DNA from: Clostridiaceae bacterium
GTDB taxonomy: Bacteria > Bacillota > Clostridia > Oscillospirales > Acutalibacteraceae
NCBI GenBank assembly: GCA_016285645.1
Contig: JAEERC010000069.1
Location: 1-64,000, forward strand
Reading direction: 5' to 3'
Length of the DNA: 64,000 nt
Below the pieces are notes generated by a model that was given only the letters and a program-made list of their open reading frames with translations, made no database searches and was not told where the DNA came from. This document shows, in pieces, positions 13,307-41,923 of the stretch. Every line of letters starts with the position of its first letter. Positions within the stretch are counted from its first letter, which is position 1. The translations under genes were made by a program, and so were the position numbers.

Positions 13307-14623
13307 ATGTTTACGGATCTTTACGAAAAACTCATTAACAAAGAAGAAAAGCTTTCGCTGGTCGGTCTCGGCTATGTCGGAATGCCGATAGCCGTCGCCT
13401 TCGCCAAAAAGGTTGATGTCATCGGCTACGACCTGAACGAAAAGAAAATAGAGCTCTACAAAAACGGCGTTGATCCGACTAACGAGGTCGGCAACGGGGC
13501 GATTGCCGCCTCAACGGTTGACTTCACCGCGGACGAAACGAAACTTCGTGAGGCGAAGTTCCACATTGTGGCCGTGCCCACTCCGGTTAACGATGACCAC
13601 ACGCCCGATTTGACTCCCGTTGAGGGCGCGAGCAGAATACTCGGCAGAAATCTCACGGCGGGCTCGGTTGTTGTTTTCGAGTCAACGGTATATCCCGGAG
13701 TTACCGAGGAGGTCTGTGTGCCCATACTCGAAAGTGAATCCGGTCTTGTGTGCGGCAGGGATTTCAAAATCGGCTACTCGCCCGAAAGAATAAACCCCGG
13801 CGACAAGGTTCACCGCCTTGAAACAATCACAAAAATAGTTTCCGGTATGGATGAGGAGACTCTCGACTGCGTTGCTGAAGTGTATGAGCTCGTGGTTGAC
13901 GCGGGCGTTCACAGGGCAGAGAGCATAAAAGTTGCCGAAGCGGCTAAAGTTATTGAAAACAGCCAGCGCGATATAAACATCGCCTTTATGAACGAGCTTT
14001 CAATCATTTTCAACAAAATGGGAATCGACACAAAGTCCGTGCTCGAAGCGGCGGGAACAAAGTGGAATTTTCTCAAGTTCTTCCCCGGTCTTGTCGGCGG
14101 CCACTGCATCGGCGTTGACCCTTATTACTTAACTTACAAAGCGGAGATGCTCGGTTATCACAGCCAGGTCATCCTCGCGGGCAGGCGCATAAACGATGAT
14201 ATGGGCAGGTATGTTGCCGAAAACTCCGTCAAAAAACTCATCAGCGCCGAAAAGCCCGTGCGCAACGCCAGGGTGGCGATTCTCGGTTTCACCTTCAAGG
14301 AGAACTGCCCCGACACAAGAAATACCAAGGTTATCGATATTTATAACGAACTGCGCGAGTACGGCATAAATCCCGTTATAGCCGACCCCGCGGCGGACAG
14401 CGCCGAGGCAAAACGGCTTTACGGCGTTGACTTCTGCGATATGAAGGATATAAAGAATATGGACGCCGTTATTCTCGCCGTCTCTCACGACTGCTTCAAA
14501 AAACTCACGATGAACGATATCGGCTCAATGTTCGGCGAAGGCAGAAAAGTACTCCTTGACATCAAGGGTGTTTTCGACCGCGGCGAATACGAAAAAGCCG
14601 GCTATATCTACTGGAGACTCTGA
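13307..14623 (+). CDS. tviB: UDP-N-acetylglucosamine 6-dehydrogenase (TviB/WbpO type)
   Basis: A 438-residue UDP-glucose/GDP-mannose dehydrogenase family member. The NAD-binding motif SLVGLGYVGMPIAVAF lies near residues 18-33. KVAEAAKVIENSQRDINIAF near 208 is the central-domain signature, and GGHCIGVDPYYL contains the catalytic Cys at about 267. It oxidises C6 of UDP-GlcNAc to UDP-GlcNAcA using two NAD+. The assignment to the TviB/WbpO group is supported by the following TviC/WbpP-like epimerase. UDP-ManNAc is an alternative substrate because wecB is present at 34355. Confidence 0.9.
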   Translation: MFTDLYEKLINKEEKLSLVGLGYVGMPIAVAFAKKVDVIGYDLNEKKIELYKNGVDPTNEVGNGAIAASTVDFTADETKLREAKFHIVAVPTPVNDDHTPDLTPVEGASRILGRNLTAGSVVVFESTVYPGVTEEVCVPILESESGLVCGRDFKIGYSPERINPGDKVHRLETITKIVSGMDEETLDCVAEVYELVVDAGVHRAESIKVAEAAKVIENSQRDINIAFMNELSIIFNKMGIDTKSVLEAAGTKWNFLKFFPGLVGGHCIGVDPYYLTYKAEMLGYHSQVILAGRRINDDMGRYVAENSVKKLISAEKPVRNARVAILGFTFKENCPDTRNTKVIDIYNELREYGINPVIADPAADSAEAKRLYGVDFCDMKDIKNMDAVILAVSHDCFKKLTMNDIGSMFGEGRKVLLDIKGVFDRGEYEKAGYIYWRL

Positions 14624-14638
14624 TTGCGGGGTGCGAAA

Positions 14639-15616
14639 ATGGGATATAAAGAACTGAAATTCCCCGAAAACTCACTTTTTCTCGTCACGGGCGGAGCGGG
14701 CTTTATCGGCTCAAACCTCTGCGAGGCGATTCTCGCCCTCGGCTGCCGTGTGAGATGCCTTGATGACCTGTCAACGGGCAAAAAAGAAAACGCCGATATG
14801 TTCTCGGACAATCCGCGTTATGAGTTCATACTGGGCGACATAAAGGATTACGACACCTGCCTCAAAGCGTGCGAGGGCGTGGATTATGTTCTCAATCAGG
14901 CGGCGTGGGGCTCCGTACCCAGAAGTATTGAAATGCCCCTTTTCTACTGCGCCAACAACATTCAGGGCACTCTCAATATGCTGGAGGCGGCAAGGCAGAG
15001 CGGCGTCAAGAAATTTGTCTACGCCTCAAGCTCATCGGTTTACGGCGACGAGCCGAACCTCCCCAAAACCGAGGGCGTTGAGGGCAATCTCCTCTCACCC
15101 TACGCCCTTACAAAACGCTGCGACGAGGAGTGGGCAAAGCAATACACCCGCCATTACTCTCTTGATACATACGGCCTTCGCTATTTCAACGTTTTCGGCA
15201 GAAGACAGTCTCCGGACGGCGCCTACGCGGCGGTCATACCGAAGTTTATAAAACAACTGCTCAATGGCGAAACCCCCGTCATAAACGGCGACGGGAAACA
15301 GAGCAGGGATTTCACATACATTGAAAATGTTATCGAGGCAAATCTCAGGGCGTGCCTTGCTTCGCACGAGGCGGCGGGTGAGGCGTTCAACATCGCCTAC
15401 GGCGGCAGGGAGTACCTCATTGATATCTACTACGGGCTCACCGAAGCACTCGGCGTAAATGTTGAACCCGTTTTCGGCCCCGACAGGGCGGGGGATATAA
15501 AGCACAGCAACGCCGACATTTCCAAGGCGAAGCGCCTTCTCGGCTACAGCCCGGAATGGTCGTTTGAACGCGGAATAAAAGAAGCGATTGAGTGGTATAA
15601 GGAGAATCTGAAATGA
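14639..15616 (+). CDS. tviC: UDP-GlcNAc/GlcNAcA 4-epimerase (TviC/WbpP type SDR)
   Basis: A 325-residue extended SDR. NAD motif VTGGAGFIGSNL is near residues 16-27; the active site has ASSSSVYGD and the YxxxK motif in SPYALTKRCDE. The segments QAAWGSVPRSIEMP and LRYFNVFGRRQSPDGAYAAV closely recall WbpP and TviC, which epimerise UDP-GlcNAc(A) to UDP-GalNAc(A). The ATG at 14639 has GGGG upstream; an in-frame TTG at 14624 is less likely. With the dehydrogenase just before it, it forms a two-gene pathway to UDP-GalNAcA, the Vi-antigen or teichuronic-type precursor. Confidence 0.9.
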   Translation: MGYKELKFPENSLFLVTGGAGFIGSNLCEAILALGCRVRCLDDLSTGKKENADMFSDNPRYEFILGDIKDYDTCLKACEGVDYVLNQAAWGSVPRSIEMPLFYCANNIQGTLNMLEAARQSGVKKFVYASSSSVYGDEPNLPKTEGVEGNLLSPYALTKRCDEEWAKQYTRHYSLDTYGLRYFNVFGRRQSPDGAYAAVIPKFIKQLLNGETPVINGDGKQSRDFTYIENVIEANLRACLASHEAAGEAFNIAYGGREYLIDIYYGLTEALGVNVEPVFGPDRAGDIKHSNADISKAKRLLGYSPEWSFERGIKEAIEWYKENLK

Positions 15617-16453: not shown

Positions 16454-17401
16454 GTGACATTTACCGCGAAACTCAAAAACCGCATAAAACAAAACGACCT
16501 TGCCCGTATCCTCATTGAGGAGCGCAAGCGCAAAAAATACGAAAAACTCGCGAAAACCGTGCCGGACAGAGAATTTATTGAGTCGCTCTATGAAAAACGG
16601 ATCGGCAGAAAGCCCGATCTCGACAATCCGCGCACCTTCACCGAAAAACTCCAGTGGCTGAAACTCAACTACCGCAATCGGGACATCCCCCTCGCCTCGG
16701 ATAAATATGAGGCGAAAAAATATATTGAACGCGCGGGCTTTCCCGACCTGCTCATACCCACGCTCGCGGTTTATGACAGCGCCGATGAAATAAGCCCTGA
16801 CGACCTGCCCGAAAAATTCATTATCAAGGCAACCCACGGCAGCGGCTGGAATTTTATATGCACGGATAAAAACAGTTTTGATTTAAAAAGAAAACGCAGA
16901 ATAATGAACTCCTGGCTTAAGCAGAATCTTTATGTTTACGGCAGGGAATGGAATTACAGAGAGCAGACCCCGCGCCTTATTGTTGAGCCGCTGATTGACG
17001 ACAAACCGCTTGTGGATTACAAATTCCTGTGTTTCAACGGCGTTTGCAGGGCGGTACAGGTCAATCACGACGAAAACGGTATCCACTATGTCGATTATTA
17101 TGATTCCGACTGGAATCTTTACCGGGATATGAGCTCGGGAACGGCGGATATTTTCGGCAAAGCTATAGATAAACCGAAAAAATTCGATAGAATGAAAGAA
17201 ATCGCTGAAAATATTTCCGGGAAATTTCCTTTTGTCCGTGTGGATTTCTACAACGTGGATGAAAAGATTTATTTCGGGGAAATGACATTTTTCCCCGGCA
17301 GCGGCTTCTGGCGCATAACCCCCGAAAAATATGATAAAATGTTCGGCGAGTGGCTGAATATTGAGGAACTGTTTAATGAGCAAAATTGTCAGAATAATTG
17401 A
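16454..17401 (+). CDS. TupA-like ATP-grasp ligase (first copy)
   Basis: A 315-residue protein of the TupA-like ATP-grasp family (PF14305). Signature blocks: TFTEKLQWLKLNYRN near residue 60, FIIKATHGSGWNFICTDK near 120 (ATP-grasp lysine and glycine-rich loop), PRLIVEPLIDDK near 177, DYKFLCFNG near 193, FPFVRVDFY near 262, and YFGEMTFFPGSG near 277 with the metal-binding Glu. TupA in Bacillus halodurans belongs to teichuronopeptide synthesis, where an amino-acid polymer is attached to uronic acid. ATP-grasp ligases form amide bonds through an acyl phosphate. Start is GTG with GGGAGG upstream. In a locus making GalNAcA it may join an amino acid to the uronic acid; this is inference. Confidence 0.88.
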   Translation: MTFTAKLKNRIKQNDLARILIEERKRKKYEKLAKTVPDREFIESLYEKRIGRKPDLDNPRTFTEKLQWLKLNYRNRDIPLASDKYEAKKYIERAGFPDLLIPTLAVYDSADEISPDDLPEKFIIKATHGSGWNFICTDKNSFDLKRKRRIMNSWLKQNLYVYGREWNYREQTPRLIVEPLIDDKPLVDYKFLCFNGVCRAVQVNHDENGIHYVDYYDSDWNLYRDMSSGTADIFGKAIDKPKKFDRMKEIAENISGKFPFVRVDFYNVDEKIYFGEMTFFPGSGFWRITPEKYDKMFGEWLNIEELFNEQNCQNN

Positions 17402-18494
17402 AAACAGAATAAACGGGCTGCCGCAGAAGTTTTATCTTTCAAAAATCAGATACGGCGAAAAGATTGCCATACGCAGAAAAAAACAGATTTTTGAAGAGAT
17501 AAAATGGAGCGATGAAAAGCGGAAACAGTTTGACGCTTTCTGGCTTAGTTCATACGGCAAAAAAATAAAGCCGTATTGGCATAAACTTTATGAAAGCGCA
17601 AACGGTGTTTATCACTTTGACTATTTCCCTGAAAACCTTTATTCAACGGAACTTGAGCCGCTTTTGAATCCTACCGAATACTGCAGGGTGTTCAGCGACA
17701 AAAATCTTACTGAAGCAATATACGGCAGTGTGGAAGAGGTGCATTTTCCCGTTACGATTCTCGCAAACTGTAACGGCTGCTTTTCGGACGGCAAGGGAAG
17801 AACGCTCAGTAGCGGTGAAGCGACAGACTTGCTTCAAAACATCGGTAAATGCGTTATCAAGCCTTCCGTTGATTCCGGCTCGGGCAAGGGCGTTATGTTC
17901 GCTGAGTTTTGCAAGGGGATTGATATTAATTCTGATAAAACCGTCGAAAGCATCTTTTCAAAATATAAAAAGGATTTTGTTGTTCAAAAAATACTGAAAA
18001 ACGCAAAAACACTTTTTGATATTTATCCAAATTCGCTTAATACATTCAGAGTGATTACATATATAGTCGATGGCAAAGTGTGTTCAGCCCCTGTATCTTT
18101 GAGAATAGGCGCAGGCGATAATAAAGTTGACAATATACATAAAGGCGGTCTTGTTGCCGGAGTAAACGGTGACGGCACTTTGAAAAAATACGCCTATCAG
18201 CTCGGGTACGGTGACAGCAAAACAAGATTCACAGCCCATCCCGACACGGGAATGGTGTTTGAAAAATATTATGTCGGCGATGTGAGAAAAATGATATCCG
18301 CCGCCGAAAAACTCCACGCCGTAACCCCGCAGCTCGGCATTATTTCGTGGGATATGACATTTGACGAAAATGATAATGTAGTTTTGATTGAGGCAAACTG
18401 CCGTGAGCAGTCGGTCTGGTTTCCGCAGATAGTAAATGAATGTCCGCTTTTCGGCGATAACACCGAATATATGATTAATCTTATCAGGCGTTAG
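17376..18494 (+). CDS. Sugar-transfer-associated ATP-grasp protein
   Basis: A 372-residue protein resembling the sugar-transfer-associated ATP-grasp family (PF14397). Visible features: CVIKPSVDSGSGKGV near residue 163 (ATP-binding lysine and loop), VVQKIL near 207, PNSLNTFRVITYI near 223, HKGGLVAGV near 260, and LGIISWDMTFDENDNVVLIE near 327, ending in EANCREQ with the metal ligands. The ATG at 17376 has GAGG upstream and overlaps the TupA-like gene by 26 bases, so the two are coupled. Two adjacent, differently built ATP-grasp ligases suggest sequential or alternative acyl additions to the glycan. The substrate is unknown. Confidence 0.85.
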   Translation: MSKIVRIIENRINGLPQKFYLSKIRYGEKIAIRRKKQIFEEIKWSDEKRKQFDAFWLSSYGKKIKPYWHKLYESANGVYHFDYFPENLYSTELEPLLNPTEYCRVFSDKNLTEAIYGSVEEVHFPVTILANCNGCFSDGKGRTLSSGEATDLLQNIGKCVIKPSVDSGSGKGVMFAEFCKGIDINSDKTVESIFSKYKKDFVVQKILKNAKTLFDIYPNSLNTFRVITYIVDGKVCSAPVSLRIGAGDNKVDNIHKGGLVAGVNGDGTLKKYAYQLGYGDSKTRFTAHPDTGMVFEKYYVGDVRKMISAAEKLHAVTPQLGIISWDMTFDENDNVVLIEANCREQSVWFPQIVNECPLFGDNTEYMINLIRR

Positions 18495-24171: not shown

Positions 24172-24184
24172 CAGGGGCTTGTTT

Positions 24185-28165: not shown

Positions 28166-28798
28166 ATGGGAAACAGCATTATTGCCCGCGCCGAGCATCG
28201 GCTTTACATCGATAACAAACGCAGAAAACTAAAGAATAAAAGCCCTTCGATTATCGCAAATAATTGCAACGGAGGAACAATTGCGCACGATCTTGGATTG
28301 CAGTTCAACAGCCCGCTTGTTAATGCCGGAATGTATGCGGAATACTACATTAAGTTTTTGCGCGATATTGAACATTATTTTAATCAACAGTTAAAACGCA
28401 TTGAAGATGATAAAGACGGCTGGTTTGTCGCTCAGTGTGATGATATTCAGATTCTTTTAGGTCATACAAAAACATATGAGGAGTCACTTGCGAATTGGGA
28501 AAGAAGAAAAAAGCGTTTTAATCCCGATAATATGTTTATTCTTTTCTGCGATAAAATGGGTTGCACTTACGACCAAATCGCCGAGTTTGACTCTCTGCCG
28601 TACGCCCACAAAGTCATTTTCACCCACAAACCATATCCCGAATTCAAAAGCGCTTATTATATGAAGGGATTTGAAAACGAAGGAGAAGTCGGAGTCCTCT
28701 CCGACTGGAAACCCGGTTTTTTAAAACGCCGTTATCTTGACGATTTTGACTATGTCGCTTTTTTAAACGGCGAAATATATAACTTTTCACGGGAGTAA
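28166..28798 (+). CDS. DUF1919-family exopolysaccharide protein
   Basis: A 210-residue cytosolic protein of DUF1919 (PF08942). The family block SIIANNCNGGTIAHDLGLQF then NSPLVN is near residues 29-55; DDIQILLGH near 93, the ANWERRKKRFNPDNMF block near 110, and HKVIFTHKPYP near 155 are also typical. DUF1919 proteins occur in capsule and exopolysaccharide loci and are suspected transferases, with no settled activity that I know. The stop overlaps a possible start of the asparagine-synthetase-like gene, implying joint expression and perhaps a joint task. Confidence 0.85.
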   Translation: MGNSIIARAEHRLYIDNKRRKLKNKSPSIIANNCNGGTIAHDLGLQFNSPLVNAGMYAEYYIKFLRDIEHYFNQQLKRIEDDKDGWFVAQCDDIQILLGHTKTYEESLANWERRKKRFNPDNMFILFCDKMGCTYDQIAEFDSLPYAHKVIFTHKPYPEFKSAYYMKGFENEGEVGVLSDWKPGFLKRRYLDDFDYVAFLNGEIYNFSRE

Positions 28799-28803
28799 TG
28801 TCT

Positions 28804-30378
28804 ATGAAGCATCTTTCCGGCAATTACAATCTCAAAACAGGCGAATACACCGACCGCTCGTGCGGTGTTTATTCACACTCTGAAAACGGCGTTTCGGTTT
28901 ATGTTTACGGCAGCGTTACAGCGGAAAACACGCTTAACAACGGCAGCACACTTCTGCGTTTATACAGCAGCTATGGCACGGATATCACAAAGCATCTGAG
29001 CGGTACATACATCGCGGCGTTTTATGAAAAAGAAACGGGCGTTCTCCGTCTTTTCCACGATCGCGCCACTTCTCCCGTCGCGCTTTATTATGTTCAGAAC
29101 GCAGACATCCTCTTTTTATCAACATCGCTTAAAGAACTGCTGAAAAAATCGAAAATCAGCCGTTCGTTTAACGAGAGCGCCGTGGAGGAGTTTCTGCTAA
29201 ACGGTTTTATTTACGGCGACGCCACTCTCGTTGAGGGCGTAAAAAAACTGCGGGCGTACAAATCCCTTGAAGCGTCGTGCGGTACGGTTAAACATATCGA
29301 TGCGGTTTATCCCATGAGGGAAATGACTCCGGGTCAGGCGCTTGACTGTTTCAAACAGACTCTTGATGACGCCGTAAAAAACTGTATTGACGGTGACGAA
29401 ACCGCCTGTTTCCCGCTTTCAAGCGGATACGATTCAAATTATATCGCCTATGTTTCAACGGAAATATGCGGCAAACAATCCACCGCCTTTTCCGTGGGCG
29501 GCAAACGCGGTAAAAACGAACTGCCTCTTGTTAAAGAGAATGTAAAGTATTATAAAAACCTCGAGCTTAAATCAGCTGTCACGGACGGCGGCTCGCTTAA
29601 AAATCTGCCGGATATAGTATATCGTCTTGAGGGCAATGTTTACGAAAGCGGAATATTTCTTCAGTATGAGCTTATGAAGCTTGTAAGCGAAAGCGGAGTG
29701 AAAAAGCTTGTATGCGGCGAGTGCGCCGACCAGGTGATGAATGTAAACTACCATAAAAAAGACAGAATTTACCCCGAAAGCCCCGACGGCAAACCGATTT
29801 ATTATGAATTCAGCGAATATCCCTATATTTTCAGCAGTTATCTCATTTTCAAAAAGAGCGGAATCCTCGCGAATTCCTTCGGGATTGAAACGGTTTATCC
29901 GTATCTTGACGAAAATGTTATTTCCGTCTGCGCCCCGCTCGGCACAATAAGTATGAAAGACAAACGCGTGCATGTCGCAAATTGCCGCGCCTGCCTCAAC
30001 CCCGAAATATTTAAAAATATGAGCAAAAAGGGCGGCTCAACCGATTGCCGCTCACTGTTTGAAAACGATGAAGAGATAAAAGCGTTTTTCAAAAAAATCG
30101 AAGGTACGGAGTTTTATAAAAAGTATTCCGGGTTGATTCTCAGCGACAGCGCTTTCAAAAAGGAAAAATTAAGCGCTTCAAAGCGCATTAAAACAATTAT
30201 CCGCAACATTATTCTTTCGCTTCTTCACAAAAAGAACGATGACAGCTATCTTGTTGAAATGAAACTGCGCGCTTATCTTTGCGCCGCCTATCTGATTATA
30301 TTCAAAAAGCTTTTCATAGAAACGGACGGCTTTGAGCTCGACGGCTGCGACATTGCTTTCGAAGATTTTATAAAATAG
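28804..30378 (+). CDS. Asparagine-synthetase-like amide-forming enzyme lacking the glutaminase cysteine
   Basis: A 524-residue AsnB-like protein. The N-terminal half follows the class II glutamine amidotransferase fold (LSGTYIAAFYEKETGVLRLF, HDRATSPVALYY, STSLKELL), but the start MKHLSGNY has no Cys2, the nucleophile that releases ammonia from glutamine. The C-terminal synthetase half keeps a PP-loop FPLSSGYDSN (SSGYDS at residues 206-211) for AMP formation and VCGECADQVM near 300, equivalent to the GEGADE block. Either ATG (28798 or 28804) leaves position 2 without Cys; GGGAG spacing favours 28804. It should activate a carboxylate with ATP and then use free ammonia or another amine, as in beta-lactam synthetase-type relatives. 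A uronic acid is a possible acceptor; this is inference. Confidence 0.82.
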   Translation: MKHLSGNYNLKTGEYTDRSCGVYSHSENGVSVYVYGSVTAENTLNNGSTLLRLYSSYGTDITKHLSGTYIAAFYEKETGVLRLFHDRATSPVALYYVQNADILFLSTSLKELLKKSKISRSFNESAVEEFLLNGFIYGDATLVEGVKKLRAYKSLEASCGTVKHIDAVYPMREMTPGQALDCFKQTLDDAVKNCIDGDETACFPLSSGYDSNYIAYVSTEICGKQSTAFSVGGKRGKNELPLVKENVKYYKNLELKSAVTDGGSLKNLPDIVYRLEGNVYESGIFLQYELMKLVSESGVKKLVCGECADQVMNVNYHKKDRIYPESPDGKPIYYEFSEYPYIFSSYLIFKKSGILANSFGIETVYPYLDENVISVCAPLGTISMKDKRVHVANCRACLNPEIFKNMSKKGGSTDCRSLFENDEEIKAFFKKIEGTEFYKKYSGLILSDSAFKKEKLSASKRIKTIIRNIILSLLHKKNDDSYLVEMKLRAYLCAAYLIIFKKLFIETDGFELDGCDIAFEDFIK

Positions 30379-30388
30379 GAGAACACAA

Positions 30389-31264
30389 GTGGGAAAACCT
30401 GATTTTGACGACAACCTGCAGTTTGACACCGTGGTTGAGCCGAAGAACAAACTTCTCGACCTCGACCTTAAAGAACTGTGGAAATACAAGGATCTTATAC
30501 TGCTTTTTGTTAAAAGAAATTTCATTTCGCAATACAAGCAGACAGTTCTGGGCCCCGCCTGGGCAATTATTCAGCCGCTGCTTACAACCGTGGTGTTTAC
30601 TATTGTTTTCGGCAATATAGCGGGGCTGGCTCCCGGCGGAGTGAACAGCTTTGTTTACTACCTCTGCGGCAATGTTTTCTGGCAGTATTTCGCCTCGTGC
30701 CTGACGATGGTCAGCCATACGTTTACCGGCAATTCCGGTATTTTCGGCAAGGTCTATTTCCCGAGGATGGTTCTGCCCGTGTCAACCGTTATAACAAATC
30801 TTATATCGCTCGCCATTCAGTTTTCGTTTTTCCTTGTCGCTTGGGTGATTTTCCTTTTTATTCCCGGCGGCAGTATGACCCCCGGCTGGCAGATAGCGCT
30901 TCTGCCGCTCCTGATTTTTGAACTTGCGCTTCTGGGGCTCGGCTGCGGAATCGTCATATCGGCGCTCACCACAAAATACCGCGATCTCGCTATGCTGGTG
31001 TCGTTCGGCGTGCAGCTGTGGATGTACGCGACACCCGTTGCCTACCCCGCCGAAATGTTCTCGGGTTCAAAGGTCGAATTCCTTTACTGGTGCAACCCGA
31101 CCTGCCCGATAATCGAAACAATCCGCTACGCCTTCCTCGGCGGCAGCGCCGCGCAGTTCCGCCCGGAAATGTGGGGCATAAGCTGGATTACCACTTTTAT
31201 TATTCTGTTTATCGGCATCCTCCTTTTCAGCAGGGTGGAAAAAACATTTATGGATACGGTTTGA
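30389..31264 (+). CDS. wzm: ABC-2 type polysaccharide export permease (Wzm/TagG-like)
   Basis: A 291-residue permease with an N-terminal cytosolic segment, LILLFVKRNFISQYKQTVLG near residue 38 (family coupling motif), and six predicted TM helices. PAWAIIQPLLTTVVFTIVFG near 58 and the Phe/Trp-rich region thereafter match Wzm/TagG proteins that export finished polymers or teichoic acids. GTG start with TAGGAG upstream. Its ATPase partner is not adjacent; the Wzt-like gene is at 36683, about 5.4 kb further on. The 112 bases after it hold no clear terminator. Confidence 0.92.
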   Translation: MGKPDFDDNLQFDTVVEPKNKLLDLDLKELWKYKDLILLFVKRNFISQYKQTVLGPAWAIIQPLLTTVVFTIVFGNIAGLAPGGVNSFVYYLCGNVFWQYFASCLTMVSHTFTGNSGIFGKVYFPRMVLPVSTVITNLISLAIQFSFFLVAWVIFLFIPGGSMTPGWQIALLPLLIFELALLGLGCGIVISALTTKYRDLAMLVSFGVQLWMYATPVAYPAEMFSGSKVEFLYWCNPTCPIIETIRYAFLGGSAAQFRPEMWGISWITTFIILFIGILLFSRVEKTFMDTV

Positions 31265-31376: not shown

Positions 31377-31865
31377 ATGATTGAAACAGCAAAAAAATGG
31401 ATAAACGAACATAAGGGATTCGTCAACTATTTTCTCATCAGTTGTTTTGTTACGGTGCTCGATATAGCCGTTTCTTTCGGCTTGGAAAAATGTCTGGTTT
31501 TGTTCTTTGAAGCCGATGCTTCAAAAGCCGCTCTCGCGGGAAATGCAGCGGGCGTGATTACGGGATTTATAGTTCAGTATTTTTTATGCACAAAAAAAGT
31601 ATATGCCGGCAGCAATGCGAAAACACTGATTATTTTCTTCCTTACCTGGCTCCTTAGCCTCGGGCTCGCGGAGGGAATTATCTATGTTGTGAGAACGCTG
31701 ATTTTCAAGGATGCCGATGGCGTTGTTTATTTCCTTGTAGGTAAGGCGTTTTCAATTGTAATACCTTTCTTCTTTACTTATTTTTTAAGGAAAGCGCTTA
31801 TACCGTCAAAACCGGATGAAAAAAATGAAGAAAAAAATGTACAGGAGGGTGCAGGAAATGAATAA
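31377..31865 (+). CDS. gtrA: GtrA-like flippase membrane protein
   Basis: A 162-residue GtrA-family protein (PF04138) with four TM helices (about 18-40, 48-70, 85-108 and 122-145). FVNYFLISCFVTVLDIAVSF near residue 16 is the family start. GtrA proteins are proposed to flip undecaprenyl-phosphate-glucose for side-chain addition. Two coupled downstream genes complete a GtrA/GtrB/GtrII set. The gene overlaps gtrB by 8 bases. It follows the only sizeable gap in the locus (112 bases). Confidence 0.9.
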   Translation: MIETAKKWINEHKGFVNYFLISCFVTVLDIAVSFGLEKCLVLFFEADASKAALAGNAAGVITGFIVQYFLCTKKVYAGSNAKTLIIFFLTWLLSLGLAEGIIYVVRTLIFKDADGVVYFLVGKAFSIVIPFFFTYFLRKALIPSKPDEKNEEKNVQEGAGNE

Positions 31866-32619
31866 ACTGTATGTCTTTTTGCCCTGTTATAACGAAGAAG
31901 ATAACATAGGATTACTCATAGAAGAGTGGATGAAACAAAAAGAAAAGTTGAACGAAAGCGGCTATGAACTCCTTTTGAGACCCATTGACGATTGCAGCAA
32001 AGACAACACAAAAAAGATTATTGAAGAAAAAGCCGTTTTATATCCTGAAAATGTGGCTCTTATTGCTCACGAAGTCAACAAAAATCTACGCGGCGGCTTG
32101 AATACAGGAATCTCGTTTTTCCTTGAAAATGCCGGTGAATCCGATTTGATGGCGTTTATGGACGGCGACAATACCCACAATCCAAAATATATTCACAGCA
32201 TGATTGATAAGCTTAAACAGAATAATCTGGATTGCGTTATCGCGTCCCGTTACTGCAGTGATTCGGGCGTTGTCGGTGTTGCTACGCACAGGGAATTCTT
32301 CAGTGATATGGCGAAGGTTTACTACTCGTTTATGCTCAGAGTGCCCGGTGTAAAGGATTATACCTGCGGATACAGGTTGTATAATTACAGCTCTGTTGCG
32401 AATCTCGTGAAAAAATTCGGCAGTGAACCGATTAAAGAACAAAGCTTTGCCTGTATGATGGAATTTTTGTACAAACTCCATCTGAGCGGCTCTGAATTCG
32501 GCGAGGTCGGTTTTGAACTTCGTTACGATTATAAACTCGGTGAAAGTAAAATGAATGTTTTCAAGACTGCAAAGGATAGTCTTTTAACGGCGGTTAAGCT
32601 CAGATTTATAAAAAAATAA
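31858..32619 (+). CDS. GtrB/DPM1-like polyprenyl-phosphate glycosyltransferase (family 2)
   Basis: A 253-residue GT-A enzyme: YVFLPCYNEEDNIGLLIEEW, PIDDCSKDNT, FMDGDNTHNP near 98 (DxD equivalent) and YTCGYRLYNYSSVANLV near 165 are typical of dolichol/undecaprenyl-phosphate sugar synthases. Unlike phage GtrB it has no C-terminal TM pair, so it is a soluble form. The ATG at 31858 is chosen because GAGGGTGCAGG precedes it and the earlier in-frame start at 31816 adds only basic residues within gtrA. Likely role: make the undecaprenyl-phosphate sugar for the neighbouring GtrA and GtrII. Confidence 0.88.
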   Translation: MNKLYVFLPCYNEEDNIGLLIEEWMKQKEKLNESGYELLLRPIDDCSKDNTKKIIEEKAVLYPENVALIAHEVNKNLRGGLNTGISFFLENAGESDLMAFMDGDNTHNPKYIHSMIDKLKQNNLDCVIASRYCSDSGVVGVATHREFFSDMAKVYYSFMLRVPGVKDYTCGYRLYNYSSVANLVKKFGSEPIKEQSFACMMEFLYKLHLSGSEFGEVGFELRYDYKLGESKMNVFKTAKDSLLTAVKLRFIKK

Positions 32620-34354: not shown

Positions 34355-35461
34355 ATGAAAATAATGACGGTATTCGGTACCAGACCCGAAGCGATAAAAA
34401 TGTGTCCTCTCGTCAACGAATTAAAAACACGTAAAAACATAGACACGAAAGTTTGTGTTACCGGTCAGCATAAACAGATGCTCACTCAGGTTCTGGAAGT
34501 TTTCGGTGTCAAACCGGATTATAACCTTTCAATAATGACCGAGAAGCAGACTCTTTTTGATATTACAGTCAATATTCTTGAAAGGATTAAACCCGTTTTA
34601 GAGAAAGAGAAGCCTGATGTCTGCCTCGTTCACGGTGATACTTCAACAAGCTTTGTTACGGCTCTTGCCTGCTTTTATTTACAGATTCCCGTGGGCCATG
34701 TTGAGGCGGGTCTGCGTACTTATAATATTTACAGCCCTTACCCCGAGGAATTCAACAGGCAAGCCGTTTCAATTGTTTCAAAGTATAATTTTGCCCCTAC
34801 GGAGAGAGCGAAAAAAAATTTACTCAGTGAAGGCAAAGCGCCTGAATCAATATGGGTTACAGGCAATACGGTTATTGATGCTTTGAAAACCACGGTAAAA
34901 AAAGATTATTACCATCCCGAAATTGAATGGGCATCCGACAGCAGGCTGATTTTTATTACAGCGCACCGCAGGGAAAACCTCGGCGAACCTATGCGGAATA
35001 TGTTCCGCGCAATCAAAAGAGTTCTGGATGAAAATCCCGGTATCAAAGCCCTTTACCCTGTTCATATGAATCCCGTAATCAGGCAGATTGCCGCGGAAGA
35101 ACTCGGCGGATGCGACAGAATTCACCTGACCGAACCTGTCGATGTCTTTGATTGTCACAACATAATGGCAAAAAGTTATCTGGTTCTCACGGATTCCGGA
35201 GGAATACAGGAGGAAGCGCCCTCGCTGGGCAAGCCCGTGCTCGTTATGCGCGATACAACCGAGCGCCCCGAAGGAGTGGAGGCGGGGACACTTAAACTTG
35301 TGGGAACAAACGAGGATGTTATTTATAACAGCTTTTCGGAGTTACTTACAAACAGCGACGCTTATAATAAAATGGCAAAAGCTGTCAATCCGTTCGGTGA
35401 CGGTTTTGCCTGCGGAAGAATTGCGGATATATTGACTGATAGTCGGAGTAAAGATAAATAG
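34355..35461 (+). CDS. wecB: UDP-N-acetylglucosamine 2-epimerase (non-hydrolysing)
   Basis: A 368-residue enzyme with every family block: VFGTRPEAIKM at the N-terminus, TGQHKQML, CLVHGDTSTS near 87, VEAGLRTYN near 115, ITAHRRENLG near 205 and TDSGGIQEEAPSLGKPVLV near 280. It interconverts UDP-GlcNAc and UDP-ManNAc. UDP-ManNAc could enter the repeat unit directly or be oxidised to ManNAcA by the dehydrogenase at 13307. It starts three bases after the GtrII-type gene. Confidence 0.95.
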   Translation: MKIMTVFGTRPEAIKMCPLVNELKTRKNIDTKVCVTGQHKQMLTQVLEVFGVKPDYNLSIMTEKQTLFDITVNILERIKPVLEKEKPDVCLVHGDTSTSFVTALACFYLQIPVGHVEAGLRTYNIYSPYPEEFNRQAVSIVSKYNFAPTERAKKNLLSEGKAPESIWVTGNTVIDALKTTVKKDYYHPEIEWASDSRLIFITAHRRENLGEPMRNMFRAIKRVLDENPGIKALYPVHMNPVIRQIAAEELGGCDRIHLTEPVDVFDCHNIMAKSYLVLTDSGGIQEEAPSLGKPVLVMRDTTERPEGVEAGTLKLVGTNEDVIYNSFSELLTNSDAYNKMAKAVNPFGDGFACGRIADILTDSRSKDK

Positions 35462-36682: not shown

Positions 36683-37954
36683 ATGAACGATCTTGCAATC
36701 AGAATTGAACATGTTTCAAAGCAGTATCGCCTCGGCGCCATAGGCGGCGGCACGCTCAAAGGCGACATTCAGTCGTTTATTGCCCGCAGAAAGGGCGAGG
36801 AAGACCCGAACAGCAAAATCGGGTCTGATGCCGCTTACCGTAAAAACGAAAAATTCCTTGCGCTTGACGATGTTTCGTTTGATGTTAAAAAAGGCGAAAT
36901 CGTCGGCATTATAGGCCACAACGGCGCGGGCAAGTCAACTTTACTCAAACTGCTTTCGCGCGTGACCGCGCCCACAAGCGGCAAAATCGGCATAAACGGC
37001 AGAATCGCCTCCATGCTCGAGGTCGGCACGGGCTTTCACCCCGAGCTCACGGGGCGCGAGAATGTCTATATGAACGGTGCCATTCTCGGCATGACAAAGG
37101 CGGAAATTGACAGAAAATTTGACGATATTGTCACATTCGCCGAAATGGAAAAATTCATTGACACGCCCGTAAAAAGATACTCAAGCGGTATGTATGTAAA
37201 GCTCGCTTTCGCCGTAGCCGCACACCTTGACAGCGAAATAATGGTTATGGATGAAGTCCTCGCCGTGGGTGATATGAAATTCCAGGACAAATGCCTCGGC
37301 AAAATGAGCGATGTCTCAAGCCAGGAAGGCAGAACGGTGCTCTATGTCAGCCACAATATGAGCACCATAAAGCGCCTGTGCAACCGCTGCATAGTCCTCG
37401 ACCACGGCAAGGTGATTTTCGACGGGGATGTCGCAACCGCTATTGACATTTATTCGAGCAATGAAACGGATGCTTCACCGTTTCATAAATTTGAAAAAGC
37501 CGATTATTGGGACTATTATCCGAGAAGCGTTCAGATGCTGGATGTGAATATTCTGAACACTGAAGACTGTATATTTAAAAGCGGCGAAACAGTAAAGTGC
37601 TGCCTGAATATTCACTCCGATATCGATATTGATAATCTGAGGCTGCGCATTGAGGTGTTTAATGCTACTGAGTCGATGCTCGGGATATCCTGCTCTGAAA
37701 GAATAGGTTTATTAAAGGCGGACGAAACAAAAGCAGTTAATTTCGGATTTGATACATCCTTGCTGAGTTCGGGAAAATACAACCTTACATTTGCGCTTTA
37801 TTACGCGAATAATTTGGGAATGAGCAACACTGTTGATTTAGGCAGAAAGGCATTGAAAATTAATATTGTCGACACACCTACCGAAGAAAAAATTGTTGGC
37901 GATTACCGTCTTGGCGGGTTTATAAGATATCCCGATTTAATTGTTTACAGGTGA
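36683..37954 (+). CDS. wzt: ABC-type polysaccharide export ATPase with Wzt-like C-terminal domain
   Basis: A 423-residue ATPase. Walker A GHNGAGKST (K84), signature YSSGMYVKLAFAVAAH, Walker B IMVMDEVLAVGD and switch His in VSHNM lie in residues 1-245. The C-terminal 160 residues (from about 265) form a beta-rich domain like that of Wzt, which in O9a-type systems recognises the polymer end. Its partner is the permease at 30389. The presence of a C-terminal recognition domain suggests the exported chain carries a specific terminal group. Confidence 0.93.
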   Translation: MNDLAIRIEHVSKQYRLGAIGGGTLKGDIQSFIARRKGEEDPNSKIGSDAAYRKNEKFLALDDVSFDVKKGEIVGIIGHNGAGKSTLLKLLSRVTAPTSGKIGINGRIASMLEVGTGFHPELTGRENVYMNGAILGMTKAEIDRKFDDIVTFAEMEKFIDTPVKRYSSGMYVKLAFAVAAHLDSEIMVMDEVLAVGDMKFQDKCLGKMSDVSSQEGRTVLYVSHNMSTIKRLCNRCIVLDHGKVIFDGDVATAIDIYSSNETDASPFHKFEKADYWDYYPRSVQMLDVNILNTEDCIFKSGETVKCCLNIHSDIDIDNLRLRIEVFNATESMLGISCSERIGLLKADETKAVNFGFDTSLLSSGKYNLTFALYYANNLGMSNTVDLGRKALKINIVDTPTEEKIVGDYRLGGFIRYPDLIVYR

Positions 37955-37958
37955 GAAA

Positions 37959-38549
37959 ATGTTTAAGAAAATCAAAAAAATAATAAAATGGCTGTTTGAA
38001 AAAGAAACTCCCGAGGTAACCAGATCACCGGTTGATATTTACAGAGAATGGGGCGCGGTGATTGGCGACGATGTGGATTTGATTGAATGCAGCTGTAACA
38101 GAAAAGACGCTACCTGTTTGCAGATTGGCAGTCATGTAACCTGCGTTTACACTCATTTTTTAACGCACGACGCAAGTCTTAAAAAGTTTATCGGCAATGA
38201 CTGTAATAAAATCGGGCGTATTGTTGTCGGCGATAATGTGTTTATAGGTTTGAAATCCATTATTTTACCTAATGTACACATAGGGAATAATGTCGTTATC
38301 GGCGCGGGGAGTGTTGTTGCAAAAAACATACCCGACAATTCGGTTGCCGTGGGCAATCCCGCAAAAGTGATATGCACTTGCGACGAGTATATCCTTAAGC
38401 ACAAAAAAGCCATTGAGGAACACCCGGAAAATGTTTATTGGAATACTTACCGGGCAGATATGACCGAAGAAGAAAGAATAAAATTCAACAATGATATAGA
38501 CTCGAAAATTGTTTATATGATGGAAAAAGAAGAGGAAGACAAACCGTGA
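37959..38549 (+). CDS. Hexapeptide-repeat acyltransferase (LbH fold)
   Basis: A 196-residue protein with a left-handed beta-helix: imperfect hexapeptide repeats such as IGRIVVGDNVFIGLKSIILP, NVHIGNNVVIGAGSVVAKN and SVAVGNPAKVI between residues 60 and 150. HFLTHDASL near 70 contains the likely catalytic His. Such enzymes acetylate amino or hydroxy groups of sugars using acetyl-CoA. The ATG at 37959 has GGTGAG upstream. The next gene starts within its stop codon (GTGA), so it is coupled to the TupA-like ligase. Confidence 0.85.
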   Translation: MFKKIKKIIKWLFEKETPEVTRSPVDIYREWGAVIGDDVDLIECSCNRKDATCLQIGSHVTCVYTHFLTHDASLKKFIGNDCNKIGRIVVGDNVFIGLKSIILPNVHIGNNVVIGAGSVVAKNIPDNSVAVGNPAKVICTCDEYILKHKKAIEEHPENVYWNTYRADMTEEERIKFNNDIDSKIVYMMEKEEEDKP

Positions 38550-39493
38550 AAACAGGTAAATTTATCCCTCGTCCGGTTAAAAACTTAATACTTAAAATCG
38601 TGCGGATTCCCGAAAGGATAAAGGTGAAAATTTACAGGGCGGCTGCTCACGGCAGGATTCCTTTCCCGGATAAGGCGTTCCAGAAATGGGATTATAAAAT
38701 ACACACGGGCAGAAAACTCAATCTGCGCCATCCCGTAACCTTTCAGGAAAAACTTCAGTGGATGAAGTATTACTACCGCAATCCCGAATTCACAAAACTC
38801 GTTGACAAATATGAGGTGCGCGACTATGTAAGGGAAAAAATCGGGGAGGAATACCTTGTTCCTCTTTACGGTGTGTATGACAACTGGAACGAAATCGATT
38901 TTGACGCTCTGCCGGATGCGTTCGTTATAAAATGCACTCACGACTCGGGCAGTGTGGTAATCTGTAAGGATAAAAGCACCTTCGATTACGATGCCGCGAA
39001 AAAGAAAATCGAAGCGGGGCTTGCCCGCAATCAGTTTTACCTCAGCCGCGAATGGCCATATAAAAATGTTAAACCGAGAATTATTATCGAGAAATATCTT
39101 ATTGATGAAAAAAGCGGCGATTTGCCCGATTACAAGTTTTTCTGCTTTGACGGGATACCAAAATATGTTCAGATTTGTTCTGATAGATTCAGTGATACCG
39201 GTCTTAAAGAAAACAATTATGATATGAACTGGAAAGAACTACCATTTGGTGAAGAAGGTATGCAGCGAAAGCCCTCAATAATTCAAAGCAGTTCGTTTCA
39301 AATTATGAAAGAATTCAGCAGGACTCTTTCTGCCGGATTTCCACATGTCAGGGTGGACTATATAGTAGCTGAGGGCTATTTTTATTTTACTGAACTGACA
39401 TTTTTTGATGGCGGTGGGAGACACTTATATGTTCCGGATAAATATAACAGGATAATAGGTGATTATTTAAAACTACCCGAAAAGATGAGATAA
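38546..39493 (+). CDS. TupA-like ATP-grasp ligase (second copy)
   Basis: A 315-residue paralogue of the TupA-like protein at 16454, sharing all blocks: TFQEKLQWMKYYYRN near residue 70, FVIKCTHDSGSVVICKDKST near 130, PRIIIEKYL near 177, LPDYKFFCFDG near 193, FPHVRVDYI near 265 and YFTELTFFDGGGRH near 283. The loop after the ATP-binding lysine differs (HDSG against HGSG), so the substrates may differ. GTG start overlaps the acyltransferase stop by four bases. It lies directly before the EctB-like aminotransferase, whose product L-2,4-diaminobutyrate is an attractive candidate substrate. Confidence 0.88.
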   Translation: MKTGKFIPRPVKNLILKIVRIPERIKVKIYRAAAHGRIPFPDKAFQKWDYKIHTGRKLNLRHPVTFQEKLQWMKYYYRNPEFTKLVDKYEVRDYVREKIGEEYLVPLYGVYDNWNEIDFDALPDAFVIKCTHDSGSVVICKDKSTFDYDAAKKKIEAGLARNQFYLSREWPYKNVKPRIIIEKYLIDEKSGDLPDYKFFCFDGIPKYVQICSDRFSDTGLKENNYDMNWKELPFGEEGMQRKPSIIQSSSFQIMKEFSRTLSAGFPHVRVDYIVAEGYFYFTELTFFDGGGRHLYVPDKYNRIIGDYLKLPEKMR

Positions 39494-39505
39494 AGAGGTT
39501 TGATT

Positions 39506-40768
39506 ATGAATTACAGTGAGTTGTATGAGTCGCAAGTGAAATCATATTGCAGGTCGTTTCCCTGTGTTTTTGATAAGGCAAAAGGTTCGTTTATTTTTTC
39601 CGACTCCGGAGATAAATATATTGATTTTTTTGACGGAGCCGGCGCATTGAATTATGGGCATAATAATGATTATATTAAGGATAAAGTTATTGATTATCTG
39701 TCAGACGACGGTATAATTCACGCTCTTGATATGTTTACTGCCGCAAAAGAGAGTTTTCTTGAAAAATTCCATCAAAGCGTTTTATCAAAACTCGGTGATT
39801 ACAAAGTTCAATTCTGCGGACCCACGGGAACAAACGCAAATGAGGCGGCGCTCAAACTTGCGCGTAAAATAACAGGCAGAACAACAGTTTTTGCCTTTAC
39901 CGGCTCTTTTCACGGAATGAGCTTAGGAAGTATGTCCGTAACCAGTGGCGTTGAAATAAGGAACAGTGCGGGCGTTCCGCTTGATAATGTTGTATTTATG
40001 CCGTATTGTGCAGGAAGCGGATTTGAGTTTGATACCCTTGATTATATGGAAAATATCCTGAATGATGATCATTCCGGCGTTGATATACCTGCGGCGGTTA
40101 TTTTTGAGACGGTGCAGGCCGAGGGCGGCATAAATGTTGCTGACATTGAATGGCTGAAAAGACTTGAACATATTTGCGAAAAGTACGGAATCCTGACTAT
40201 TTGTGATGAAATCCAGGTCGGGTGCGGACGAACAGGAGATTTCTACTCTTTTGAAAGAGCGGGAATTCATCCCGATTTGATTTCTTCTTCAAAATCAATA
40301 AGCGGCTACGGATTCCCGATGTCGATTCTGCTTATAAAGAGTAAATATGATATTTGGGAACCTGCTGAGCATAACGGAACATTCAGAGGCAATCAGATTG
40401 CCTTTGTGTCTGCAAAAGCTGCTTTGGAATTCAGAGAAAAAAACAATTTAAAAAATGAAGTTGAAAGAAAAGCTGTTATAATAAGCGACTTTTTAGAAAA
40501 AGAATTATTACCTCTTAATTCGGAAATAAGTTTTCGCGGCATAGGAATGATTTGGGGAGTTGATTTCTCAAAAATTGACGCAACAGGAGAATTAACACAT
40601 ATAATTGCTTCTGATTGTTTTAAAAAGAGATTGATTATTGAACGTGCCGGCAGGCATGATACCGTTCTTAAAATTATGCCGGCTTTGACAATCGAAGATG
40701 ATGTTCTTCTGGAAGGATTGGAAATAATTAAAGCTTCCGCTATAGATTCATTAACCAAAATAAGATAA
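39506..40768 (+). CDS. ectB: L-2,4-diaminobutyrate:2-oxoglutarate aminotransferase (EctB family)
   Basis: A 420-residue class III PLP aminotransferase with the EctB pattern at the start, YESQVKSYCRSFPCVFDKAK, then FFDGAGALNYGHNN near 46, VQFCGPTGTNANEAALKLAR near 103, FTGSFHGMSLGSMSVTSG near 133, ICDEIQVGCGRTGDF near 233 and SSSKSISGYGFPMS with the PLP lysine K263. EctB makes L-2,4-diaminobutyrate from aspartate semialdehyde with glutamate as amino donor. No ectA or ectC is present, so this is not an ectoine operon. AAGAGG precedes the ATG at 39506. The gene is AT-rich compared with most of the locus. Its position suggests diaminobutyrate serves the polysaccharide. Confidence 0.88.
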   Translation: MNYSELYESQVKSYCRSFPCVFDKAKGSFIFSDSGDKYIDFFDGAGALNYGHNNDYIKDKVIDYLSDDGIIHALDMFTAAKESFLEKFHQSVLSKLGDYKVQFCGPTGTNANEAALKLARKITGRTTVFAFTGSFHGMSLGSMSVTSGVEIRNSAGVPLDNVVFMPYCAGSGFEFDTLDYMENILNDDHSGVDIPAAVIFETVQAEGGINVADIEWLKRLEHICEKYGILTICDEIQVGCGRTGDFYSFERAGIHPDLISSSKSISGYGFPMSILLIKSKYDIWEPAEHNGTFRGNQIAFVSAKAALEFREKNNLKNEVERKAVIISDFLEKELLPLNSEISFRGIGMIWGVDFSKIDATGELTHIIASDCFKKRLIIERAGRHDTVLKIMPALTIEDDVLLEGLEIIKASAIDSLTKIR

Positions 40769-40772
40769 TCTT

Positions 40773-41312
40773 ATGTTCTACTACATCTACCGTCTTGACC
40801 TCACGGCTGTGATTGCCGTGATTGCCGTGAGCGTTCCGCTGTGGGCGGGGGCAATGCGCCTGCTTTCGGGAATAAATCCCCGTGCCGTGAGAACGGTGAA
40901 CGCCGTTCTCGCCGCCGTATCGCTCGCGGGAATAGTTTACGCAACGCTCATACGCTCGCCCTCGCACACGCGCGAAATATTCCTTATGCCTTTTCACTCC
41001 TTCATTGAGGCGAAAGCGCAAAAGGAGATGTACCGCGAAATGCTTATGAATGTTTTTCTGTTTGTGCCGGCGGGTGTAACATTACCGTTCGCGCTGCTCA
41101 GAAACGGCTTTGAGCCCGCGTCACAGACGCGGAAAACCGTGTTAACAACAATAATCTTTGCCGTTTGCCTTTCGTTTGTAATCGAGGCGGTTCAGTTCGC
41201 TTTCGGTATCGGCAGGGCGGAGACGGACGACATAATCTGCAACACACTCGGGGCAGCCATAGGCACATTGTCGTTTGTTATTTGCGGTATTCTAAAGAAA
41301 AAAGATGAATAG
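40773..41312 (+). CDS. VanZ-family membrane protein
   Basis: A 179-residue protein with four or five TM helices. The VanZ-like region (PF04892) is visible as NVFLFVPAGVTLPFAL near residue 91, FVIEAVQFAFGIGRAETDDI then ICNTLGAAIG near 130-160, matching the conserved E-x-x-Q and D-D-x-x-x-N-x-x-G motifs. VanZ proteins occur in glycopeptide-resistance and surface-polysaccharide clusters; the biochemical role is not settled. It is the last gene of the polysaccharide run, four bases after ectB, and is followed by a REP element. Confidence 0.85.
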   Translation: MFYYIYRLDLTAVIAVIAVSVPLWAGAMRLLSGINPRAVRTVNAVLAAVSLAGIVYATLIRSPSHTREIFLMPFHSFIEAKAQKEMYREMLMNVFLFVPAGVTLPFALLRNGFEPASQTRKTVLTTIIFAVCLSFVIEAVQFAFGIGRAETDDIICNTLGAAIGTLSFVICGILKKKDE

Positions 41313-41378: not shown

Positions 41379-41402
41379 GTAGGGCACGGATTATTCCGTG
41401 CC
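41379..41402 (+). repeat. REP-like palindrome with 5' GTAG
   Basis: GTAG followed by an 8-bp palindrome GGCACGGA-TTAT-TCCGTGCC. The GTAG tetranucleotide immediately 5' of the hairpin is the hallmark of REP sequences recognised by RAYT transposases. The second copy, in opposite orientation, is at 41713-41736 and differs in a single base of the loop. Confidence 0.8.
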
Positions 41403-41434
41403 GAAAAAAGCTGTGCTCTTAATAGGTGCTGATT

Positions 41435-41923
41435 ATGAAGGATTTACCAAAGAGAAAACGTTTGCGTCTTAAAGATTATGACTATTCATCTGAAAATTTT
41501 TACTTTGTTACAATTTGCACGAAAAACAGAAAACAGATTTTCGGAATGGCAGACAATCTTTCACTTTTCGGTCATATTGCCGAAAACCACCTGAAAAAAC
41601 TGAACAGTTTTTATAATGAAATAAATGTTATAAAATATATTATAATGCCTAATCATATTCACGCGGTTATTTCAGTCGGTTGCAATCCGGAAACCGTCAC
41701 CGACGAAAAAACGGCACGGAAGAATCCGTGCCCTACACTGTCTGATATAATCGGCTCATATAAAGCAGGCGTTACACGCGAAATACATAATATTTCACCC
41801 GGTTACTGTGTCTGGCAACAGGGCTTCTATGACCATATAATTAAAAATGAAGCGGACTTTGATAATGTTTGGATTTATATAGAAGAAAATCCTGCTAAAT
41901 GGGAAAATGATGAGTATTATTAA
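41435..41923 (+). CDS. REP-associated tyrosine transposase (RAYT, IS200/Y1 family)
   Basis: A 162-residue Y1-type HUH nuclease of PF01797. Motifs: FYFVTICTKNRKQIFG near residue 25, the HUH motif in IIMPNHIHAVIS near 72, and GFYDHIIKNE with the likely catalytic Tyr near 133, ending YIEENPAKWENDEYY. ATG at 41435 has AGGTG upstream. Single-copy RAYTs mobilise REP palindromes rather than themselves. One REP lies just before the gene and another sits inside it, in frame, encoding part of TARKNPCPT. There are no insertion-sequence ends that I can see. Confidence 0.88.
   Translation: MKDLPKRKRLRLKDYDYSSENFYFVTICTKNRKQIFGMADNLSLFGHIAENHLKKLNSFYNEINVIKYIIMPNHIHAVISVGCNPETVTDEKTARKNPCPTLSDIIGSYKAGVTREIHNISPGYCVWQQGFYDHIIKNEADFDNVWIYIEENPAKWENDEYY
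41713..41736 (-). repeat. REP-like palindrome inside the RAYT gene (reverse orientation)
   Basis: GGCACGGA-AGAA-TCCGTGCC followed by CTAC, i.e. GTAG plus the same palindrome on the - strand. It matches the copy at 41379-41402 except for one loop base. It lies in the coding frame of the transposase without breaking it. Confidence 0.78.

Follow-up and report, generated by a model that had tools for sequence, protein, structure and literature searches.

The 64,000-nucleotide (nt) stretch of DNA analyzed here, hereafter the window, comes from a Clostridiaceae bacterium (GCA_016285645.1, contig JAEERC010000069.1, positions 1–64,000, + strand, to which all coordinates refer). Near the end of a polysaccharide locus it carries a gene for an EctB-type transaminase, predicted to make L-2,4-diaminobutyrate (DABA), directly behind a gene for a TupA-like ATP-grasp ligase. 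The reading that we favor, tentatively and with slightly less than even confidence, is that DABA is ligated to a surface polysaccharide through EctB and this adjacent ligase. The identity of the genes, the non-ectoine context and the accessory, locus-bound nature of the transaminase are well supported; that DABA would be the substrate of TupA, which sugar would accept it and how the charge would change are points that we infer from the gene context. The attachment step stays conditional because the exact EctB–TupA pair was seen only here.

The EctB open reading frame (ORF) spans 39500–40768, with an in-frame TTG at 39500 and an ATG start at 39506 that is preceded by AAAGAGG and sits 12 bases after the stop of the TupA-like gene, so that the ORFs and the spacing described in an earlier note on this DNA were confirmed. 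The product exceeds the cut-offs of two DABA-transaminase models, NF006733 (576.6 bits, cut-off 438) and TIGR00709 (442.1, cut-off 401.6), and reaches 545.4 with the ectoine EctB equivalog TIGR02407, below its cut-off of 552.2. Among proteins of solved structure the three closest to it are DABA transaminases, one of which has Ala at the position of the pyridoxal phosphate (PLP) lysine; this lysine is kept in all 48 aligned EctB rows. The equivalents of Met149, Asn301, and Thr303 of P. lautus EctB, residues whose roles are taken from excerpts of PMC6915088, are M, N, and T in the window enzyme, at a constant offset from the PLP lysine. By its sequence, gene 39506 clearly appears to be a class-III aminotransferase of the DABA–2-oxoglutarate transaminase type, and the claim of the earlier note that it makes DABA is borne out, as a prediction, by the family models and the active-site residues. 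When its own genome was searched with it, the gene itself aside, three weaker matches of 20–29% identity were obtained.

The same note had excluded a role in ectoine synthesis, and this held. Neither ectC (PF06339) nor ectA (TIGR02406) gave a match in the own genome (97.88% complete), and across 38 genomes (the own one, two congeners, and 35 EctB-bearing relatives) ectA was above the cut-off in none, with nine weak matches below it, and a single genome, G062, had ectC above the cut-off (a partial match of 30.3 bits). The window enzyme shares with the EctB of ectoine synthesis the predicted reaction and the active-site residues (excerpts of PMC6915088) but differs in that no EctA or EctC was found in its genome and in that it belongs to a clade distinct from the ectABC enzymes (100/100), and on these grounds an ectoine role was ruled out. 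Use of DABA by a nonribosomal peptide synthetase (NRPS) was likewise rejected for this genome, in which no multi-domain NRPS was found; the sole candidate is a condensation-like ORF of 460 amino acids (aa), and similar ORFs of 461–462 aa occur in two congeners, where no EctB was found.

The product of the adjoining gene, 38546, matches PF14305 with 207.9 bits (cut-off 25) over the complete domain (1–241 of 241). Its AlphaFold model has a predicted local distance difference test score (pLDDT) of 93.5, and the top Foldseek matches of this model are D-Ala-D-Ala ligases (Ddl), PsnB, and LysX, and BacD follows in 40th place (E ~1e-7 to 1e-5 for these matches). The modeled fold supports assignment to the carboxylate-amine ligase type, and ligase activity is predicted.

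Both genes lie in an operon-like run of + strand genes (9162–41312), in which the listed genes are never separated by more than 112 bases (Table 1). The locus contains genes for uronic-acid sugars, the dehydrogenase passing the TIGR03026 model (its closest equivalog is TviB, with 477.8 against a cut-off of 592) and the TviC-like epimerase remaining under its equivalog cut-off, together with a sugar transferase, glycosyltransferases, and a DltB-like protein. The AsnB-like ORF does not have Cys at position 2 and retains an SSGYDS motif. The picture of a uronic-acid polysaccharide locus that also holds a second TupA-like ligase, another ATP-grasp protein, and a Cys-less AsnB-like enzyme, as first put forward from the letters, stands.

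In the proposed mechanism, EctB would convert aspartate semialdehyde and glutamate into DABA, which would not go on to ectoine but be passed to an amidoligase of the ATP-grasp type encoded in the locus, the TupA-like 38546 being the likeliest one. This enzyme would form an amide between DABA and a sugar that bears a carboxyl group (of the GalNAcA or ManNAcA type), and the DABA-bearing surface polysaccharide would leave through the ATP-binding cassette (ABC) exporter encoded there. One or more amines of DABA would stay free, which may give a zwitterionic or less acidic coat.

Table 1. Features of the window, followed by two groups of loci from other genomes
Feature	Position	Strand	Basis or remark
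TviB-like nucleotide-sugar (UDP-HexNAc) 6-dehydrogenase, uronic-acid source	13307..14623	+	TIGR03026 379.1 bits, cut-off 189.8
TviC-like UDP-HexNAcA 4-epimerase	14624..15616	+	equivalog 303.6, below cut-off 760
Second TupA-like ATP-grasp ligase (PF14305)	16454..17401	+	Pfam profile
ATP-grasp protein, family PF14397 (sugar-transfer associated)	17361..18494	+	Pfam; overlaps second TupA
AsnB-like enzyme without N-terminal catalytic Cys	28798..30378	+	profile, sequence inspection
ABC-2 permease (PF01061), Wzm-type by context	30389..31264	+	Pfam profile
UDP-GlcNAc 2-epimerase WecB	34355..35461	+	TIGR00236 497.9 bits, cut-off 210.15
Wzt/TagH-like ATPase, polysaccharide ABC exporter	36683..37954	+	profile scores below equivalog cut-offs
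Hexapeptide-repeat acetyltransferase	37941..38549	+	profile; 4-base overlap with start of TupA 38546
TupA-like ATP-grasp ligase (PF14305), proposed DABA ligase	38546..39493	+	Pfam profile, predicted fold
EctB-type L-2,4-diaminobutyrate–2-oxoglutarate transaminase, orphan	39506..40768	+	profiles, solved relatives, alignment, tree
VanZ-like membrane protein	40773..41312	+	4 bases past EctB; closes gene run
Orphan EctB followed by PF14397-type ATP-grasp gene	L036, L037, L040, L043, L047, L048, L049, L056, L075, L077, L137		
TupA by CEO-synthase-like AlaDH-family gene (see text)	L184:6684-8639, L198:9018-10897, L211:7089-10845		

Among the 45 genomes of the genus EctB was found in one, that of the window; 36 of the 45 give a match at E ≤ 1e-20, the matches other than the own one being of 28–34% identity and at most 132 bits. 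PF14305 gave no match in the two congeners tested, and thus EctB and TupA look as if they had been gained with the accessory locus, a distribution that fits use by the locus over use by the core cell wall. In broader samples EctB occurred in 27 of 200 genomes of the family, the own one included (E ≤ 1e-90), in 15 of 394 of the order (E ≤ 1e-100), and in 7 of 398 of the phylum (E ≤ 1e-130). In a tree of 48 EctBs the window EctB joins three orphan EctBs from two other families of the order (L069, L070, and L071; 98/95), within a clade of 14 rows (98/87) that also has EctBs of NRPS- or polyketide synthase (PKS)-type and Mur-linked surroundings and the family rows L042, L044, and L056. It falls outside a separate clade of 30 rows (100/98) that takes in 26 of the 29 other family rows, so that the window EctB is unlikely to descend from the type common in the family; most likely the gene was acquired horizontally. 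The EctB nearest to it in identity (61%) is found in a plasmid record labeled Klebsiella grimontii (L119, CP079755.1), where the neighbors are annotated as a LoaP antiterminator and an ACP S-malonyltransferase and the surroundings are, by reading, Firmicute-like in appearance.

The surroundings of EctB were surveyed within a radius of four genes in a sample of 41 other loci (26 from the family, nine from the order, and six from the class or phylum), related genomes being counted singly (e.g., L045 and L046 of one genus). Contig ends cut several of them, L040 and L056 being without an upstream gene and L038, L048, L058, L070, and L140 having one, so that an upstream TupA could be missed there. 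ORF calling may also add spurious wrong-strand ORFs in loci rich in guanine plus cytosine (G+C), and counts of loci without a partner are thus upper bounds; such ORFs were seen in L043, L048, and L054, which were called again with EctB forced. Spacings computed for L075 and L140 were distorted by overlaps and were disregarded. An ATP-grasp gene of the PF14397 type was the next same-strand gene after EctB in 11 of the 41 loci (Table 1). With L034, outside these 11, where one short ORF puts the ligase two called ORFs from EctB, and with L045 and L046, where it lies two genes upstream, 14 of 41 loci have such a ligase within two genes. The ligases of L034, L037, L045, L056, and L137 were assigned by Pfam, and the others by phmmer to these and to 17361. 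MurT/GatD genes were within four genes of EctB in four loci (L041, L045, L046, and L055), MurF, FemAB, and MurE surrounded it in two, and EctA/EctC-like genes, by reading of translations, were near it in three (L138–L140); in 20 of the 41 no sought partner gene lay within this distance. Since orphan EctB recurs by PF14397 ligases, by MurT/GatD, and by MurF/FemAB/MurE, its placement beside an amino-acid-ligase-like gene is a recurring arrangement.

The association with PF14397 is also seen in gene content. At E ≤ 1e-50 the L037-type clade of this family was present in 20 of 27 EctB-bearing genomes of the family vs. 38 of 173 without EctB (Fisher p 2e-7, relatedness ignored), and at E ≤ 1e-100 the close clade was present in 10 of 27 vs. 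2 of 173 (p 2e-8, again with relatedness ignored). The model of the L037 enzyme (pLDDT 87.5) resembles Ddl, D-Ala-D-Lac ligases, LysX/ArgX, RimK, glutathione synthetase, and YwfE. Eleven of the 12 EctBs with a downstream ligase fall in the 30-row clade, the remaining one (L056) being in the 14-row clade of the window. The window itself is not of this two-gene type: PF14305 adjoins its EctB and the PF14397 gene lies 21 kb upstream. In the two loci with Mur genes (L135:3541-12048 of genome G680, and L136 of G645), MurF is followed by EctB, a FemAB-family protein, and then MurJ, MurE, and a 408-aa ORF, a run, from another class of the phylum, that likely makes peptidoglycan with DABA. The 408-aa ORF of L135 has a weak CPSase_L_D2 (carbamoyl-phosphate synthase (CPSase)/ATP-grasp) Pfam match and no solved relative was found for it; it may resemble a D-Asp ligase. 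In G107 (L107:9530-12752) a PF14397-type ATP-grasp gene is divergent from MurT/GatD, with EctB ~19 kb off on the same contig.

Genes of the 38546 type of TupA (E ≤ 1e-25) were found in 36 of 394 genomes of the order, the own one included, and 38 other TupA loci were compared (39 minus L195, where no TupA ORF was found). At least five (L115, L118, L193, L204, and L211) have a dehydrogenase and/or an epimerase like those of the window within four genes, at 60–86% identity. In three of the 38 (Table 1) a gene of the alanine dehydrogenase (AlaDH) family lies within three genes of TupA, adjacent in two, and is ~30% identical to annotated N5-(carboxyethyl)ornithine (CEO) synthases, which suggests carboxyethyl-amino-acid amides on polysaccharides. 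Like the EctB–PF14397 pairs, these loci speak by analogy for the ligation of DABA proposed here. A Proteus mirabilis homologue of TupA was considered as an O-antigen precedent and dropped, its neighbors in NZ_OL790811 not being O-antigen genes by reading.

Several observations weigh against the attachment of DABA by TupA 38546. The recurrence of the ectB–TupA pair in other genomes, which the earlier note had set in advance as a test, failed in this sample: TupA was within four genes of EctB in none of the 41 other EctB loci, and EctB in none of the 38 other TupA loci. PF14305 was found in 5 of 35 other EctB-bearing genomes and adjoined EctB in none, and L069, L070, and L071, the nearest relatives of the window EctB in the tree, have no sought ligase within four genes. 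Of the 38 TupA loci, 32 showed no gene resembling EctB, CEO synthase, or a class I/II aminotransferase, and TupA may therefore normally use a common amino acid. The enrichment of CEO-synthase-like genes is no more than suggestive (3 of 527 genes vs. 0 of 852 in other loci, p 0.056; a further AlaDH-like match, in L196, was not counted), and with NCBIfam their products gave just an alaDH match far below the cut-off. The fold matches of TupA 38546 are partial (TM-score by query length 0.27–0.41); the single protein had no match among solved structures at E ≤ 1, and a profile reached 0.073 at best (Ddl), so its substrate cannot be deduced from the sequence. As for composition, G+C is 0.39–0.41 in the acetyltransferase, TupA, and EctB genes (37941–40768) and 0.46 before and 0.52 after them, but it is as low or lower elsewhere in the locus (0.312 in 19608, 0.401 in 28166, and 0.39–0.40 in 31377–32619) and hence says little on a joint origin of the block. 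Overall the earlier interpretation is partly supported, the amide bond between DABA and a uronic acid being what TupA 38546 would form if the gene context is a guide.

One alternative, fairly unlikely in our judgment, is that EctB is a passenger, an orphan that transfer left where a variable locus ends, and that it has a role of its own (e.g., DABA as a metabolite) or none. In favor are the failure of the pair to recur and the frequency of lone EctBs elsewhere (the 20 loci without a sought partner), and the gene has the second lowest G+C at third codon positions (GC3, 0.333) among the listed genes of the run and a Y1 transposase ORF nearby at 41426. Nevertheless, it has a good ribosome-binding site, the 12-base spacing, an intact frame, and a conserved active site, and its TupA and acetyltransferase neighbors are of similar G+C. 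It is also unlikely that DABA is destined for peptidoglycan (bridge or stem), as proposed here for EctBs of other lineages, its position in a polysaccharide locus being incidental. The runs from MurF to MurE in two genomes, MurT/GatD beside or near EctB in four loci and the pairing with PF14397-type ligases in others point that way, as does the 14-row clade, where Mur-linked EctBs and the ligase-paired L056 stand together with the window EctB. Peptidoglycan type is, however, expected to be common to a genus, which counts against this explanation given the 1 genome in 45, the L037-type PF14397 clade has no match in the own genome (E limit 1e-50), and nearly all EctBs with a downstream ligase (11 of 12) lie in the other clade.

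Unlikely to a similar degree is that another protein of the locus attaches DABA to the polymer, be it the PF14397 ligase (17361), the AsnB-like enzyme (28798), or the TupA encoded at 16454, or that DABA is N-linked to an amino sugar instead of forming an amide with uronic acid. Here 16454 lies close to the genes for the uronic acid, and five or more loci elsewhere have TupA-like genes within four genes of close relatives of those genes; in other genomes EctB is paired with PF14397 ligases. Against this, it is 38546 that adjoins EctB, and the 17361 product is just 25% identical to the EctB-paired L037 ligase. That the transaminase acts on another substrate, such as a 4-aminobutyrate-like or sugar-derived aldehyde, is very improbable. 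Its score slightly below the ectoine EctB cut-off and the residual 4-aminobutyrate transaminase (GABA-TA) activity of (Pl)EctB, mentioned in excerpts of PMC6915088, would agree with it, but the two DABA-transaminase models are passed and the active-site positions agree. In addition, relatives of 57–61% identity adjoin NRPS- or PKS-type genes (in part annotated and in part by reading, for L121 and partly L119), where supplying DABA is the usual role. These relatives, from plasmid records (Paenibacillus sonchi, Nostoc, and the one labeled Klebsiella grimontii), are orphans of the 14-row clade like the window EctB, and differ from it in having NRPS/PKS-type rather than polysaccharide genes as neighbors.

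Ligation of DABA to a uronic-acid polymer, the reading that we prefer, has relatives in known systems. Excerpts of PMC10609480 describe uronic acids that carry Lys, Orn, or carboxyethyl-Lys in amide linkage (e.g., Lys in Proteus mirabilis O27, Orn in Treponema medium, and carboxyethyl-Lys in Providencia rustigianii O14). These amidated O-antigens and capsules are likewise uronic-acid polymers with a basic amino acid as carboxyl amide, as proposed here, but DABA is not in the list quoted from that source, and ours would be an ABC-exported polymer of a Clostridia-type bacterium, predicted from genes. The teichuronopeptide of alkaliphilic Bacillus, the namesake of PF14305, also combines uronic acid with an amino-acid polymer, but consists of poly-glutamate and polyglucuronate, DABA not being mentioned in the excerpts of PMC8153356. 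In Lactococcus, racD and the ATP-grasp D-Asp ligase gene aslA share an operon (excerpts of PMC4155827), which similarly brings together the synthesis of an uncommon amino acid and an ATP-grasp ligase for it; there the amino acid is D-Asp, not DABA, and the acceptor is peptidoglycan. The statement of the earlier note that no such system had been described holds insofar as we recognized no description of DABA amide-linked to uronic acid in the open-licence literature searched; it is too broad with regard to the amides of Lys, Orn, and carboxyethyl-Lys and to EctB paralogs in non-ectoine pathways, which are also noted in print (excerpts of PMC5924519).

A wider reading, which we regard as doubtful, is that EctB and an ATP-grasp amidoligase together form a mobile unit placing DABA on envelope polymers, on peptidoglycan or its precursors in relatives (with the PF14397-type ligase and with MurT/GatD or MurE/MurF/FemAB as neighbors) and, through a ligase of the TupA type, on a uronic-acid polysaccharide here. 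If so, DABA-bearing envelope polymers would be widespread, though unrecorded, in this order of Clostridia-type bacteria, and an orphan ectB adjoining an ATP-grasp gene would serve as a genetic marker for them. The charge and antigenicity of a capsule-like polymer would change if it carried this cationic, uncommon amino acid. The failed recurrence of the exact pair, together with the parallel EctB–ligase pairs and the EctBs with cell-wall neighbors, widens the question, and the recurring EctB–PF14397 pair makes the function of a little-characterized ligase family directly testable.

Just beyond the VanZ gene that trails EctB there is a Y1 (IS200-like) transposase ORF (41426–41923). Inverted arms of 25 nt (41379–41403 and 41712–41736, 96% complementary), the second inside this ORF, appear REP/RAYT-like by reading. 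Finally, at 22711–25201 the DltB-like membrane protein (below the equivalog cut-off) precedes a protein that matches DUF1574 weakly, a pair that perhaps serves O-acylation of the polymer.

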